Assembly (NCBI RefSeq): GCF_007994135.1
Contig: NZ_VLKF01000001.1
Location: forward strand, 2,604,001 to 2,668,000
Reading direction: 5' to 3'
Source: Modestobacter roseus
Lineage (GTDB): Bacteria > Actinomycetota > Actinomycetes > Mycobacteriales > Geodermatophilaceae
Length of the DNA: 64,000 nucleotides
The position numbers and the translations under genes were made by a program. Below the pieces are notes generated by a model that did no database searches, was not told the DNA's origin, and saw nothing but the letters and a program-made list of their open reading frames with translations. Positions 25,705 to 41,789 of the stretch are shown in pieces. Numbering within the stretch: position 1 is the stretch's first letter; the number at the start of each line of letters is the position of its first letter.

Positions 25705-27909
<2,205 letters not shown>

Positions 27910-29403: not shown

Positions 29404-30369
29404 TTACTCGGCGGCCTGTTCGAAGGTGATGACGGTCCAGCCCAGCAGCAGGCGGTCGCCGTCGGCCAGCACGTGCGGCACGCCCGGCTCGAGCTGGGTC
29501 CACTCGGTGGCCTCGGGGCCGGCGACGTGCGTGCCGTTGAGCGACCCCAGGTCGATCAGCGACACCTCCCGACCGGACCGCTGGATGGCGGCGTGCGCGG
29601 AGGACAGCACGTTCTGCGTGTCGGCGATCGGCACGGGCCGCGCCGAGCCGCTGGTGACCAGGTCGTGGCCGTCGGGACGGCGACCGAGGACCAGGTCCTC
29701 GTCGACGGTGACGACCAGGCCGTCGTCGAAGCGGAGCACCGGCGCCGCCGGCGGCTCCGGCCGCCAGAACGCGGTCTGCTCACCCGACGGTGCAGCCGCC
29801 GCGGCGGCGCGCCCGCCACCGCTGAAGCCGCCGTCGGTGCTGGCGGTGAAGGGCGACTCGCTGGGCAGACCGGTCGACCTCGGCACGGCGACCGAGGGCG
29901 GCACGGCGGCGGCCAGCTGCAGCAGCGCGCCGGAGCCGGGCACGGTGCCCTCGACGAGGTCCAGGGCGACCCCCGGCGGCATCGCGGCGGCCGGCTGCCC
30001 GGGCCCCACGTACAGCGTCTGCCCCAGGGCGAAGCCCGCGGCCAGGGTGCAGCCGTCGGCGGCCGACCCAGAGACGGGCACGCCGTCGACGGCGGGCTGA
30101 CCCTTGCCCGACCACAGCGCGACGCCGGAGCCGGCGCCGTCGGTGGTGTCGGCGAGGACCAGGGCGAAGGAGACGGGGCCGTCGGAGAGCCGGCTCACCT
30201 GCCCGGCGACGGCGGCGAGCACGCGGTCGGCGCCCGGGCCGCTGACGCCGAGACAGGCGTGCAGCGCGGCGACGAGCGCCGGTGAACCGGGGGCGTCGAC
30301 CCACAGCAGGCCACCGCCGCGGCGGGCGACGACAGAGTCTCCGGGGAGCACCTCACAGCGGTCGGGCAT
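29404..30369 (-). CDS. FHA-domain protein
   Basis: 321 residues. A C-terminal FHA domain (about 235-321) is clear: 'DLVLGRRPDGHDLV', 'SSAHAAIQRSGREVSLIDLGSLNGTHVAGP' and 'LADGDRLLLG', with Arg, Ser-His and Asn-Gly phosphothreonine contacts. The N-terminal ~150 residues ('VVARRGGGLLWVDAPGSPALVAALHACLG') form an unidentified domain, and a low-complexity Gly/Ala linker joins them. FHA proteins dock onto Ser/Thr-kinase targets; no kinase is nearby. Start ATG 30369, 7 bases after a TAGGCT box. Confidence 0.85.
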   Translation of the reverse strand: MPDRCEVLPGDSVVARRGGGLLWVDAPGSPALVAALHACLGVSGPGADRVLAAVAGQVSRLSDGPVSFALVLADTTDGAGSGVALWSGKGQPAVDGVPVSGSAADGCTLAAGFALGQTLYVGPGQPAAAMPPGVALDLVEGTVPGSGALLQLAAAVPPSVAVPRSTGLPSESPFTASTDGGFSGGGRAAAAAAPSGEQTAFWRPEPPAAPVLRFDDGLVVTVDEDLVLGRRPDGHDLVTSGSARPVPIADTQNVLSSAHAAIQRSGREVSLIDLGSLNGTHVAGPEATEWTQLEPGVPHVLADGDRLLLGWTVITFEQAAE

Positions 30370-30376
30370 GGAGGCC

Positions 30377-30382
30377 AGCCTA
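30377..30382 (-). promoter_or_regulatory. Leaderless-type -10 box of the FHA gene
   Basis: TAGGCT, 7 bases before the ATG at 30369. The rest of the 177-base gap to glgP shows nothing recognisable. Confidence 0.5.
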
Positions 30383-30546
30383 ACGACGCGCGCGCACATC
30401 CGAGCGCCCGCCACCGCACGCCGCGCCGTGATCTCGGCCCGTTCTGCACGGCACGTACCAGCGGTCACACCTTCACCACCGAGACTGCGACGTTCCGCTG
30501 TCGAGCGCGCACCCAGCGTGAGCGATCGACCGGCGACCGCACGCCC

Positions 30547-33109: not shown

Positions 33110-33265
33110 GCCGCGGACCCCGGTCCGCACCGGGTCGAACGACCTCCGCCGTCCACCCACCGGACACGACCTCCCGGGCCGACCGGGCCGGTCCGGGCGG
33201 CCCGACGGCTCACCCGCCTGGCGGAGGGGAGATCACTTCGACGTGCCCACCTGTGCGGATGTGGA

Positions 33266-33271
33266 TAGCGT
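33266..33271 (+). promoter_or_regulatory. Leaderless-type -10 box of glgE
   Basis: TAGCGT, 7 bases before ATG 33279. It lies downstream of the alternative GTG at 33243, so that longer start would not be transcribed from this promoter. Confidence 0.6.
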
Positions 33272-33278
33272 GGCCGCG

Positions 33279-35285
<2,007 letters not shown>

Positions 35286-35395: not shown

Positions 35396-37254
<1,859 letters not shown>

Positions 37255-37255
<1 letters not shown>

Positions 37256-38625
37256 TGACTGCGGTGACCGACCTGCTGGCCGGCTGGATGCCGGGACAGC
37301 GCTGGTTCGGGGGCAAGGGCCGCGACTGGGCCGAGGTCAGCGACGAGGGGTTCTTCCTCGACCAGTCCGACCCGGTGCTCTCCGTCCACCGCGTCCAGAT
37401 CACCTACACCGACGGGGCGACCGAGACCTACCTCGTGCCCCTCTCCTGGCGCGAGTCGCCGGCCGAGGAGCTGGCCGGTGCCTTCATCGGCGCGGTGACC
37501 GGTTCCAACGGCACGGAGAACTACGCCTACGACGCGATGCGCGACCGCGAGGCCACCGTCCCGTGGCTGACCCACCTGGTGGCCGCCTCCACCGTGGGCC
37601 CGATGCGCTTCCACCCGGCCGGGGTCGCGCACATCCCCGAGGGGCTGCCCGGCGACATCATCTCCACCGAGCAGAGCAACACCTCGCTGGTCTACGGCGA
37701 GTCGGCGATCCTCAAGCTGTTCCGCCGGCTCGAGCCCGGGCTCAACCCGGACGTCGAGATCCACGACGCGCTGCGCCGCGCGGAGAACCCGCACATCGCC
37801 GGGCTGCTCGGGCACATCGAGATCGACGGCGCCCCCGGCGAGGAGCCGGCCACCGTCGCGATGCTGCAGACCTTCGTGCCCAACGCCAGCGACGGCTGGC
37901 GACTGGCCACCTCCAGCGTGCGCGACCTGTACGCCGAGGCCGACCTGCACGCCGACGAGGTGGGCGGTGACTTCGCCGGGGAGAGCGAGCGGCTCGGTGA
38001 GGCGACCGCCTCGGTGCACGCCGACCTCGCCCGGGTGCTGCCGACCGAACCCGCCGACCGGGACTGGTACCGCACGCTGGCGGAGCAGATGACCCAGCGG
38101 CTGGACGCGGCGCTCGCCGTCGTCCCGGACCTGGCCGAGCACGCCGATGCGCTGCGGACGCTCTACACCGCGGTGGCCGGCACCGAGGAGCCGGTCACCC
38201 GCCAGCGGGTGCACGGCGACCTGCACCTGGGCCAGGTGCTGCGCACCACCAGCGGCTGGATCGTGCTGGACTTCGAGGGCGAGCCGGCCCGACCGCTGGC
38301 CGCCCGGCGCGAGCTGGACACCCCGCTGCGCGACGTGGCGGGGATGCTGCGCAGCTTCGACTACGCCGCGCGGCACATGCTCGTCGAGCAGCCCGACGAC
38401 CCGCAGCGCGCCTACCGCGCCCAGGAGTGGGCCGAGCGGAACCGGGCCGCCTTCTGCGCGGGCTACTCGGCCGCGGGCGGGGTGCCGCTGGCGGCCGACT
38501 CGGCCCTGCTGCGGGCGTTCGAGGCGGACAAGGCGGTCTACGAATGCGTCTACGAGGCGCGCAACCGGCCGCACTGGTTGATGATCCCGCTCAGCTCGTT
38601 GTCCCGGCTGACCTCCGGCGACTGA
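37255..38625 (+). CDS. mak: Maltokinase
   Basis: 456 residues (Pep2/Mak). It phosphorylates maltose to maltose 1-phosphate with ATP, supplying GlgE. N-terminal cap '[19 protein letters not shown]', catalytic loop '[13 protein letters not shown]' with the base Asp, and metal site '[29 protein letters not shown]' are all intact, as is '[23 protein letters not shown]'. The ATG overlaps the treS stop as TGATG, so translation is coupled; this rejects the longer open frame that starts within treS. Confidence 0.96.
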
Positions 38626-38681
38626 TCCGCCGACGCGGCCGGCGACGACCACAGACCACCGAGAAGCACCTGGAGACACCG

Positions 38682-41600
38682 ATGAGCACCGAGGACACGC
38701 AGGGGAACCCCCCCGACGCGGAGCCGGCCGGCAAGGACGAGCTGATGCGCCGGGTCGAGGAGAAGACGGCCGCCGTCCAGGAGGCCGCCACGACCGACGA
38801 GAACGCCACCGAGGCGGCGCCGCCGGCGAAGAAGGCCACCCGCAAGGCCGCCGCCACGAAGGCCCCGGCGAAGAAGGCCCCGGCCAAGAAGTCCCCGGCC
38901 AAGAAGGCGGCCGCCGCGACCGCTGACGCCGGTGCGCAGAGCGAGCTGCCCACCGAGGCGGCGCCGGCCACGAAGGCCACCAAGCGGACGACGAAGAAGG
39001 CAGCTGCGGCCGCCGCTGACGGCGACGCCGCCCCGGCCAAGCGCACGCGGAAGGCCGCCGCCAAGAAGGTGACCGCCGCGCCCGTCGTCGCCCCGGCGCC
39101 GATCGCCGAGCCCGGCGACCCGACCGCGCCGTCGGCCCCGCAGCCGGAGCCGCCGAGCCCCGACCCGGCCGAGCCGAGCACCCCGCAGGCGCCGGAGGAC
39201 GGCGAGCACGCCGGTACCGGGGGCAGCTCCCCGGCCGAGACCGCCTCCGAGCCGGGCGCGGAGAGCGCGCCCGACACGGTCGGCGCGCCGGACAGCCAGG
39301 CGTCGGCCCCCGAGCCGACGACGGCGGAGACCGCCACCGCCGACCTGGTCGTCGGCGAGGTCACCGACCTGCCCCCCGCTCCCGGTGAGGCCCCAGAGCC
39401 TGCCGCCACCGAGCTGGTCGCGGCGCTGCCGGAGGGCGAGACCCCGGTGAGCACCTCGGTGCCCGCCGACGCCACCCCGGCCGGTCGCGAGGTGTCCGGC
39501 GAGGAGCTGCGCGCCGTCGTCGAGGGCTGGTCCTACGACCCGCACGGGGTGCTCGGTGCCCACCGACTGCCCGAGGGCTGGGCGGTCCGCACCCTGCGGC
39601 CGGACGCCGTGGCCGTGGTGGTCGTCGACCAGGACGGCACCCGGTACGAGGCCCACCAGCTGCACGGTGGCGGCGTCTACGAGGCGCGACTGCCCCAGCA
39701 GCCCGGTGACTACCGGATCGAGGTCGTCTACCCCAACGGGGACGGCGGCACCGACACCTACACCGTCGACGACCCCTACCGCTGGCTGCCCACGCTGGGC
39801 GAGGTCGACCAGCACCTGATCCGCGAGGGCCGGCACGAGAAGCTGTGGACCGTCCTCGGTGCGCACGTGCGCCACTACGACACCCCCGGCGGCCCCGTCG
39901 ACGGGGTGTCCTTCGCCGTCTGGGCGCCCAACGCCCGCGGCGTGAAGGTCACCGGCGACTTCGACTACTGGGAGGCGCGCGCCTACCCGATGCGGTCGCT
40001 GGGCTCCTCCGGCGTCTGGGAGGTCTTCGTCCCCGGCGTGCAGGTGGGCACCCGCTACCGGTACCACGTGCTGGGCGCCGACGGTCAGTGGCGGGTGAAG
40101 AGCGACCCGATGGCGTTCGCCACCGAGGTGCCGCCGGCCAACGCCTCCGTCGTCACCGAGTCCACGCACGAGTGGCACGACGACGCGTGGCTCGCCTCCC
40201 GCGCCGAGAGCCGCTGGCACGAGCGGCCGATGAGCGTCTACGAGGTGCACGCCGGCTCGTGGCGGCAGGGCCTGTCCTACCGGGAGATGGCCGACGAGCT
40301 CGTCGCCTACGTCAAGGACGCCGGGTTCACCCACCTGGAGTTCATGCCGCTGGCCGAGCACCCCTTCGGCGGCTCGTGGGGCTACCAGGTCACCTCCTAC
40401 TACGCCCCCACCTCGCGCTTCGGCAGCCCCGACGACCTGCGCTACCTGATCGACGCCGCCCACCAGGCCGGCATCGGCGTCATCGTCGACTGGGTGCCGG
40501 CACACTTCCCGAAGGACGACTGGGCGCTGGCCCGGTTCGACGGCACCCCGCTGTACGAGCACGCCGACCCGCGCCGCGGCGAGCAGCCGGACTGGGGAAC
40601 CTACGTCTTCGACTTCGGCCGGAACGAGGTGCGCAACTTCCTGGTCGCCAACGCGCTGTTCTGGGCCAAGGAGTTCCACATCGACGGCATCCGGGTCGAC
40701 GCCGTCGCCTCGATGCTCTACCTGGACTACTCGCGCAACGACGGTGAGTGGACGCCGAACGAGTACGGCGGCCGGGAGAACCTGGACGCGGTCTCCTTCC
40801 TGCAGGAGATGAACGCGACCGTGTACCGCGAGGTGCCCGGCGTCGTGACCATCGCCGAGGAGTCGACCGCCTGGCCGGGCGTCACCCGGCCCACCTACCT
40901 CGGCGGCCTGGGCTTCGGCTTCAAGTGGAACATGGGCTGGATGCACGACTCGTTGGGCTACATGGCCAACGCGCCGATCTACCGCAGCTACCACCACGGC
41001 CAGCTGACCTTCTCCCTGGTCTACGCGTTCTCGGAGAACTACGTCCTGCCGATCAGCCACGACGAGGTCGTGTACGGCAAGGGCTCGCTGCTGCGGAAGA
41101 TGCCCGGTGACCGGTGGCAGCAGCTGGCCAACCTGCGCGCCTACCTGGGCTACATGTGGGCCCACCCGGGCAAGCAGCTGCTGTTCATGGGCTCGGAGTT
41201 CGGGCAGCTGTCGGAGTGGGCGGAGAGCCGCTCGCTGGACTGGTGGCACCTCGACGACCCGGCGCACCGCGGCGTGCTCGACCTGGTCCGCGACCTCAAC
41301 ACGGTCTACAAGGAGACCGAGGCGCTGTACTCCCAGGACGTCGATCCGGCGGGCTTCCAGTGGATCGACGCCAACGACGCCGGCGGCAACACGCTGACCT
41401 TCCTCCGGTACGGCAAGGACGGCCAGGTGCTGGCCTGCATCGTCAACCTCTCCGGCAACCCGCACCACGACTACCGGGTGGGCCTGCCGCGGGGTGGCCG
41501 CTGGCGCGAGCTGATCAACACCGACTCGGAGGGCTACGGCGGGTCCGGCGTGGGCAACTTCGGCGGGGTCGACGCCGTCGCCGAGGCGTGGCACGGGCAG

Positions 41601-41789
41601 CCGTGGTCGGCGACGCTCACCGCGCCGCCGCTGGCCACCGTGTGGCTGGTGCACGAGGGCCCCGAGCCCGAGCTGCCCGACTCCGGCGTGCCGGCGGACC
41701 AGGCTCAGATCGCCGCCGCCGAGGCCTCCGGTGCCGCCGAGGGCCCGGGCACCGGTCTGGAGCCAGCACAGCCCGACTCCCAGGAGTGA
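38682..41789 (+). CDS. glgB: 1,4-alpha-glucan branching enzyme with a 270-residue histone-tail-like extension
   Basis: 1035 residues against about 730 for typical GlgB. Residues 1-49 are acidic. Residues 50-76 and 97-130 are Lys/Ala-rich ([47 protein letters not shown]), like histone H1 or the tail of actinobacterial HU. Residues 131-270 are an acidic Pro/Glu/Ala linker. From about 271 ('[26 protein letters not shown]') a normal GH13_9 enzyme follows: CBM48, '[22 protein letters not shown]', nucleophile Asp in '[17 protein letters not shown]', Glu in '[12 protein letters not shown]' and '[15 protein letters not shown]'. The frame is unbroken; ATG 38682 has GGAG about 8 bases ahead. A GTG at 39492 could start a normal-length form. 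Last gene before a strong terminator. Confidence 0.95.

Follow-up and report, generated by a model that had tools for sequence, protein, structure and literature searches.

The glycogen branching enzyme (GlgB) of Modestobacter roseus carries a 270-residue N-terminal extension that is real, old, modular and under selection, and the most constrained part of this extension is a 42-residue proline-rich block. By analogy with the storage-granule proteins PhaM, PhaF and AlgP, we tentatively suggest that the extension may be a conserved low-complexity tethering arm on the enzyme.

The branching enzyme and its extension

Within the window, the whole 64,000-nucleotide stretch of the M. roseus genome analysed here, glgB is the last gene of a GlgE-pathway cluster with the order glgX, an FHA-domain gene, glgP, glgE, treS, mak and glgB (Table 1), and the mak stop codon lies 56 nt before the glgB ATG. 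An earlier note on this DNA had described 270 extra residues in frame ahead of the enzyme, and this is confirmed by the ATG, the open frame and the start of the GlgB_N domain at aa 274. The Pfam matches, all above cut-offs, are GlgB_N (N1, aa 274-366) and CBM48 (aa 392-478), followed by the alpha-amylase (catalytic) and C-terminal domains, so that the N1, CBM48, GH13 alpha-amylase and C-terminal parts of a GlgB were all found. The NCBIfam models NF003811 and TIGR01515 were matched above cut-off, and the M. tuberculosis GlgB structure (PDB 3k1d) aligns to aa 275-990. The motifs RVDAVA, IAEES and SHDEVV, which we take to be the GH13 catalytic-residue motifs, are located at 671, 724 and 792, and their residues D673, E726 and D794 are invariant across 48 sequences. 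The enzyme part behind the extension is an otherwise ordinary branching enzyme.

Table 1 Features of glgB, its extension and the surrounding GlgE-pathway cluster (positions in the window).
Feature	Positions	Strand	Basis
glgX	25705-27909		named from domains
FHA-domain protein gene (PF00498)	29404-30468	-	Pfam
glgE	33243-35285	+	GlgE domains
probable treS	35396-37255	+	named from amylase domains and position
mak/pep2 maltokinase, directly upstream of glgB	37255..38625	+	Pfam Mak_N_cap
Shine-Dalgarno-like GGAG, 6 nt ahead of the ATG	38672..38675	+	
glgB, glycogen branching enzyme with N-terminal extension, 1035 aa, uninterrupted frame	38682..41789	+	open frame, Pfam, NCBIfam, PDB 3k1d
short conserved N-terminal segment, aa 17-36, helix-like by eye	38730..38789	+	column conservation
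Lys/Ala-rich H1-like block, aa 47-130	38820..39071	+	composition
conserved proline-rich block, aa 131-172 (42 residues)	39072..39197	+	conservation, dN/dS
acidic Pro/Ala/Glu linker, aa 173-270, variable	39198..39491	+	charge, dN/dS
GTG, proposed second start	39492..39494	+	not conserved
GlgB_N (N1) and CBM48 glucan-binding domains	39501..40115	+	Pfam

The extension itself (aa 1-270) had no match in Pfam (E<=1), NCBIfam (E<=0.1) or the PDB sequences (E<=0.01). It is not a maltokinase fusion: mak is a separate gene, no Mak domain is among the Pfam matches of GlgB, and NF011293, a long GlgB model of 1224 positions that may describe a Mak-GlgB fusion, did not reach its cut-off (1111 bits against 2376, the match beginning only at model position 481), although it was the best-scoring NCBIfam model for this protein. 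The FHA-domain gene lies directly downstream of glgP within the glycogen cluster, which suggests phospho-threonine signalling close to glycogen metabolism; a conserved phospho-threonine read by this neighbouring FHA protein was considered, and no evidence for it was found.

The earlier note had proposed an alignment of GlgB N-termini across the Geodermatophilaceae, and most of the relatives carry the extension. GlgB was detected in all 112 family genomes (M. roseus included), and the upstream DNA was read for 109 of them, with G070, G095 and G097 left out as partial matches. An N-terminal extension of 101-335 aa is present in 99 of the 109 (M. roseus included), where the start was taken as the first ATG with a Shine-Dalgarno-like sequence behind mak, where there was such an ATG; the Shine-Dalgarno signal across the 99 is therefore not independent evidence, being partly built in by this criterion. 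The median gap from mak to the ATG in these sequences is 53 nt. The ten others comprise G061, with 72 aa, G096, cut by a contig end (both outside the set of 99), and eight genomes of the genera g6, g7 and g8, whose fragmented assemblies are probably MAGs. Seven of these eight have no extension, with a longest candidate start of at most 9 aa (3 aa in G074, 3-9 aa in G075), and the eighth, G072, runs into the end of its contig.

All 56 extended family sequences that were sampled fall into one clade (SH-aLRT 100) of a maximum-likelihood tree, built quickly from 69 GlgB cores. The six sampled g6-g8 sequences fall outside it, and support for the separation from the seven outgroup rows is low (65). 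The simplest history read from these sequences would be a single gain at the base of the extended clade; a loss in the g6-g8 lineage is possible. An assembly error or a recent fusion is rejected, since 99 family sequences carry the extension and one origin fits the GlgB tree. Third-position GC within the extension is 0.96, the extension is in frame in 99 sequences and, in the pooled comparison, synonymous exceeds non-synonymous change in every segment, which together make it more than a chance open frame.

Long N-termini of actinobacterial GlgBs are already known. In Wang et al. 2019 (PMC6339891), branching enzymes with at least 100 residues ahead of N1 are classed as Type 3 GBEs (147 of 9006, mostly from Actinobacteria), with Frankia Q2J6Q9 and S. 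avermitilis Q82JF0 as examples, and a putative "N0" domain related to CBM48 is conjectured for them. The M. roseus enzyme, with about 273 residues before GlgB_N, falls under this definition. In contrast to the published description, its extension is of low complexity, with an H1-like block and a conserved proline-rich motif, and the sequence searches of Pfam, NCBIfam and the PDB found no CBM48-related N0 in aa 1-270, where a very remote fold is possible. In a word search of PMC6339891, the terms Geodermatophil-, Modestobacter, Blastococcus, lysine and low complexity were all absent, and "disorder" appeared solely in the sense of disease; the terms "N-terminal extension", "disordered" and "N0 domain" are likewise absent from the first 300,000 characters of a 2024 Chem Rev review of alpha-glucan enzymes (PMC11046441). 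Neither Lys-rich tails on GlgB nor a tethering of glycogen came up in the titles and abstract beginnings of the open-licence papers listed, and, within the portions of that literature covered, neither the Lys/Ala nature of the extension, nor its recurrence, nor the 42-residue block was found.

Composition and constraint of the modules

Column conservation was taken from an alignment of the 99 extensions. When dN/dS was pooled within genera (902 non-independent pairs from six genera, with an uncertain alignment in the low-complexity stretches), it was 0.64 ahead of the short N-terminal segment, 0.38 in that segment, 0.52 in the Lys/Ala block, 0.26 in the proline-rich block and 0.71 in the acidic linker (1.02 in genus g4 alone), against 0.42 for the N1 domain of the enzyme. 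In each of the six genera the value for the proline-rich block is below that of N1, though by a narrow margin in Klenkia (0.20 vs 0.22), and 24 of the 42 columns of the block reach a conservation of at least 80%, with a maximum of 98%. In the short segment, L21 and V25 are kept at 97%. The Lys/Ala-rich blocks that the earlier note placed at aa 50-76 and 97-130 are present as described. Its 140-residue acidic Pro/Glu linker is acidic as claimed, but really consists of two parts, the conserved proline-rich block and the variable linker behind it, so that reading the whole as a uniform linker had missed the strongly conserved block.

Charge is segregated along the extension. The Lys/Ala block (18 K and 4 R) has a net charge of +17, and aa 131-270 one of -24, to which the proline-rich block contributes -6 and the linker -18. 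Acidic residues outnumber basic ones in the extension as a whole (net charge -15), and the median net charge of the entire extension is negative in six of the nine genera that have one.

The two modules are separable, each being lost in some genomes, and both are missing together in none of the 99 extended GlgBs. The core of the proline-rich block was found in 94; the five others (G066, G107, G111, G053 and G062) retain the Lys/Ala block, and the first three of these are the sole genomes of their genera (g5, g10 and g12). A stricter motif for the block missed eight of the 99, including three variant or shortened forms (G028, G036 and G037). The Lys/Ala block is kept in 90 of the 99, with 10-21 Lys in the extension, and is lost in all nine Klenkia (g9) genomes, which have 1-2 Lys in the whole extension and retain the short segment and the proline-rich block. 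Since Klenkia lost this block and kept the rest, the Lys/Ala part is not the best conserved and can be dispensed with.

Outside Klenkia, Lys retention exceeds neutral decay. The decay was simulated from the 18 Lys of the M. roseus GlgB, ignoring indels and codon bias, and at an equilibrium GC of 0.73 at least 10 Lys were left in 59% of the runs at 0.2 substitutions per site, in a fraction of 0.0105 at 0.5 and in 0 of 2000 at 1.0; at a GC of 0.60 the fractions were 0.033 at 0.5 and 0.0015 at 1.0. Between M. roseus and the five other genera compared, the difference at the fourfold sites of N1 is 0.36-0.43, which corresponds to about 0.6-0.9 substitutions per site by a hand estimate allowing for base bias. 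At least 10 Lys were observed in the region in 88 of the 90 non-Klenkia sequences, the lowest count being 9.

The GTG at the junction with the enzyme had been proposed as a second start giving a form of normal length. The codon exists in M. roseus, but the corresponding position across the 99 sequences reads GTC in 56, GTG in 21, TTC in 12 and other codons in 10. It is thus rejected as a conserved feature, and a conserved short second form of GlgB appears unlikely from these codons; the start may still be used in M. roseus alone.

Distribution of the proline-rich block and of Lys-rich tails

No copy of the 42-residue block outside Geodermatophilaceae GlgB was found in the M. roseus genome, in 393 genomes of the class or in a pattern scan of contigs, and these searches lend no support to a widespread domain. 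In the M. roseus genome only GlgB matches the block well (next match, E 0.11), and the profile search of the class genomes gave two matches, the M. roseus GlgB and that of the family member G023. The pattern scan, which was based on a pair of short peptide patterns and therefore overlooks diverged copies, covered the contigs of 84,980 species and returned 67 loci. The block lies in a GlgB frame in 64 of them and a variant of it in a GlgB frame in two more; the last is a stretch without GlgB that ends with its contig. By name, the records of all but one of the 67 loci belong to genera of the Geodermatophilaceae or to the family itself; the exception, "UNVERIFIED_ORG: Bacillus sp. AZ43", has a contig of the same length as one of the family member G030.

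The Lys-rich tail has a wider distribution. The exact DNA pattern for KKAxAKK, a strict one that misses milder tails, occurs at 11 places in the M. roseus genome (reversed control, 0), in six genes encoding Ku, a sigma-70 factor, L4, an SNF2/ResIII-like helicase, TopA and GlgB. The five bearers other than GlgB are nucleic-acid or ribosome proteins, and look-alike tails on proteins acting on DNA or the ribosome fit a polyanion tether. In eight relatives, 13 loci were read of 36 places, many of which overlap within one gene, leaving out four further stretches with places in G077, G083 and G084; the loci comprise TopA (3), Ku (3), trigger factor (3), sigma factor (1), L4 (1), GlgB (1) and a CheA-like kinase (1), identified by likeness and, for the trigger factor of L330 and the kinase, by Pfam. 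In Klenkia, the genomes read still have tails of this type on trigger factor (G077, G083, G084), Ku (G079, G083) and TopA (G084), and the loss on GlgB is therefore specific. The Klenkia trigger factors (L330, L332, L333) end in repeated KKAxAKK stretches, with Pfam Trigger_N/C in L330. In the CheA-like kinase (L357, from the Modestobacter genome G106), a KKAAAKK linker lies between the Hpt and kinase parts; with the same type of tail on such a protein, its presence does not prove that DNA is bound.

PAKK/KAAK tails have been described on mycobacterial HupB, and likewise for Ku and topoisomerase I (PMC5676037). The GlgB repeats are of the same type, and the Ku and TopA of M. roseus carry such tails; HupB, Ku and TopA are DNA proteins, whereas GlgB is a metabolic enzyme. 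The likeness to actinobacterial HU tails drawn in the earlier note fails locally, and we reject this analogy: the sole HU found in the M. roseus genome (L266, PF00216) has 95 aa and lacks the Lys-rich tail described for HupB.

Outside the family, 246 genomes of the class were searched and GlgB was found in 221 (M. roseus included). Of the 49 loci read in 24 other families, 29 were taken as the best-scoring and 20 were chosen by hand; 39 of the 49 have at most 100 aa ahead of the enzyme, and Lys-rich extensions occur in three (G164, G191, with an ambiguous start, and G232). Five loci (L152, L153, L154, L164 and L172, from families f35, f29 and f6) encode Mak and GlgB in one uninterrupted frame, a Rosetta-stone hint from sequence that the N-terminus of GlgB can sit near Mak. 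The genus of G232, which is probably Streptomyces (genomes of 5.5-11.3 Mb), has at least two GlgBs in 15 of 61 genomes at the cut-off used. At least 10 Lys, and up to 49, were present in 9 of the 30 loci read from it, all nine downstream of mak (G232 belongs to this set as well as to the outside-family one). In six of these Streptomyces-like loci (L278, L282, L283, L288, L289 and L294), likewise behind mak, the N-terminal AKKA-type repeats contain 34-49 Lys. Given this variation, the Lys-rich tail is recurrent and labile on mak-linked GlgBs, and the 42-residue block was detected in this family alone.

Possible functions of the extension

In a tethering arm, the extension would be without structure, and its Lys/Ala block would bind polyanions regardless of sequence, with chromosomal DNA as the most likely target. 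The docking peptide for a protein partner would be the proline-rich block, perhaps together with the short N-terminal segment; candidates for the partner are neighbours in the GlgE pathway such as maltokinase. Since the CBM48 and the active site would hold GlgB on the growing glycogen, the arm would place glycogen synthesis, and hence the glycogen particles, on the nucleoid; the CBM48 and the GlgB core were found by Pfam, and glucan binding is expected from the family.

This explanation is favoured because GlgB joins a glucan-binding enzyme to a tail, as PhaM, PhaF and AlgP join a granule-associated part to a DNA-binding H1-like tail, with disturbed granules when they are absent (PMC13052382, PMC9239181). 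PHB granules are reported to be attached to the nucleoid via PhaM (PMC3556143), whose PAKKA motif has been named (PMC11352279). GlgB resembles these PHB (PhaM, PhaF) and polyphosphate (AlgP) proteins in its Lys/Ala/Pro H1-like tail, carried by a protein that would be associated with a storage granule. It differs from them in that their DNA-binding ends are C-terminal and DNA binding has been reported, whereas the GlgB tail is N-terminal, on a catalytic enzyme, and known from sequence alone, and in having a conserved motif beyond their plan. The presence of the extension in 99 of 109 genomes, the pooled dN/dS below 1 in every segment (lowest in the proline-rich block), the Lys retention above simulated decay, the lack of any extended GlgB without both modules, the Mak-GlgB frames of three other families and the functions of the other five KKAxAKK bearers in M. 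roseus also speak for the tethering arm.

The earlier note had proposed that the tail could tether glycogen granules to the nucleoid, among other sites. What stands of this idea is a genuine tail, marked as coding by every comparative sign, with an H1-like composition and look-alikes on DNA and ribosome proteins, but the nine Klenkia genomes without the Lys/Ala block are the strongest fact contrary to it. The absence of the block core in 5 of the 99 and the labile Lys tail in the Streptomyces-like genus also count against it, as may the net charge of -15, in that the acidic residues may neutralise the Lys/Ala block.

The segregated charge and the negative medians in most genera would also suit a polyampholyte, in which the basic block and the acidic linker condense GlgB with itself or with pathway partners into a glycogen-making assembly, and DNA is not involved. 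We consider this unlikely, as the basic half is absent from Klenkia and the extension of G107 contains just four acidic residues, whereas other lineages keep both, and as charge pairing alone leaves the strictly conserved proline-rich block unexplained. That block might instead act in cis, folding onto N1/CBM48 or the catalytic domain and tuning chain transfer, with the Lys/Ala block as a dispensable spacer. N-terminal regions of branching enzymes are reported to affect glycogen chain length (PMC6339891), and Klenkia keeps the block where the Lys/Ala part is lost; with the enzyme retained in the five genomes that lost the block core, we would not expect this reading to hold either.

Binding of the Lys/Ala block to RNA, ribosomes or polyphosphate in place of DNA is quite unlikely: the look-alike tails on L4 (M. 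roseus and G107) and Klenkia trigger factor, and the association of the H1-like AlgP with polyphosphate granules, agree with it, but four of the five other tail bearers in M. roseus are DNA or transcription proteins. A low-complexity stretch without function, produced by slippage of repeats in the high-GC DNA, is an improbable account of the extension. Its repetitive Lys/Ala/Pro codons, its large length changes (101-335 aa) and the Lys/Ala tails that come and go in the Streptomyces-like genus would fit such growth, but not the low dN/dS of the block, the Lys content well above simulated neutral decay or the presence of the extension throughout the extended clade. The cell-wall or HBHA-like adhesin role raised in the earlier note, with binding to sulfated glycans or the cell wall, is very improbable, since, beyond the resemblance in composition to HBHA tails, no signal or anchor sequence was noticed by eye and the gene lies within the GlgE-pathway cluster. 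The seven Pfam matches of GlgB include no HBHA family.

Returning to the tethering arm, bacteria are known to space their PHB and polyphosphate granules by means of H1-like tails, and a word search of a granule-positioning review gave 0 occurrences of "glycogen". The Geodermatophilaceae are desiccation-prone bacteria of soil and stone. It is possible, though doubtful, that glycogen is positioned on the nucleoid in the manner of PHB and polyphosphate, by a tether built into the GlgB of this family that would combine an H1-like DNA arm with a new 42-residue docking motif. The tailed branching enzyme kept across the family makes glycogen positioning directly testable with one truncation, and Klenkia, without the Lys/Ala block, and the five genomes without the block core are natural controls. 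The 42-residue motif offers a concrete handle on a partner of the GlgE pathway.
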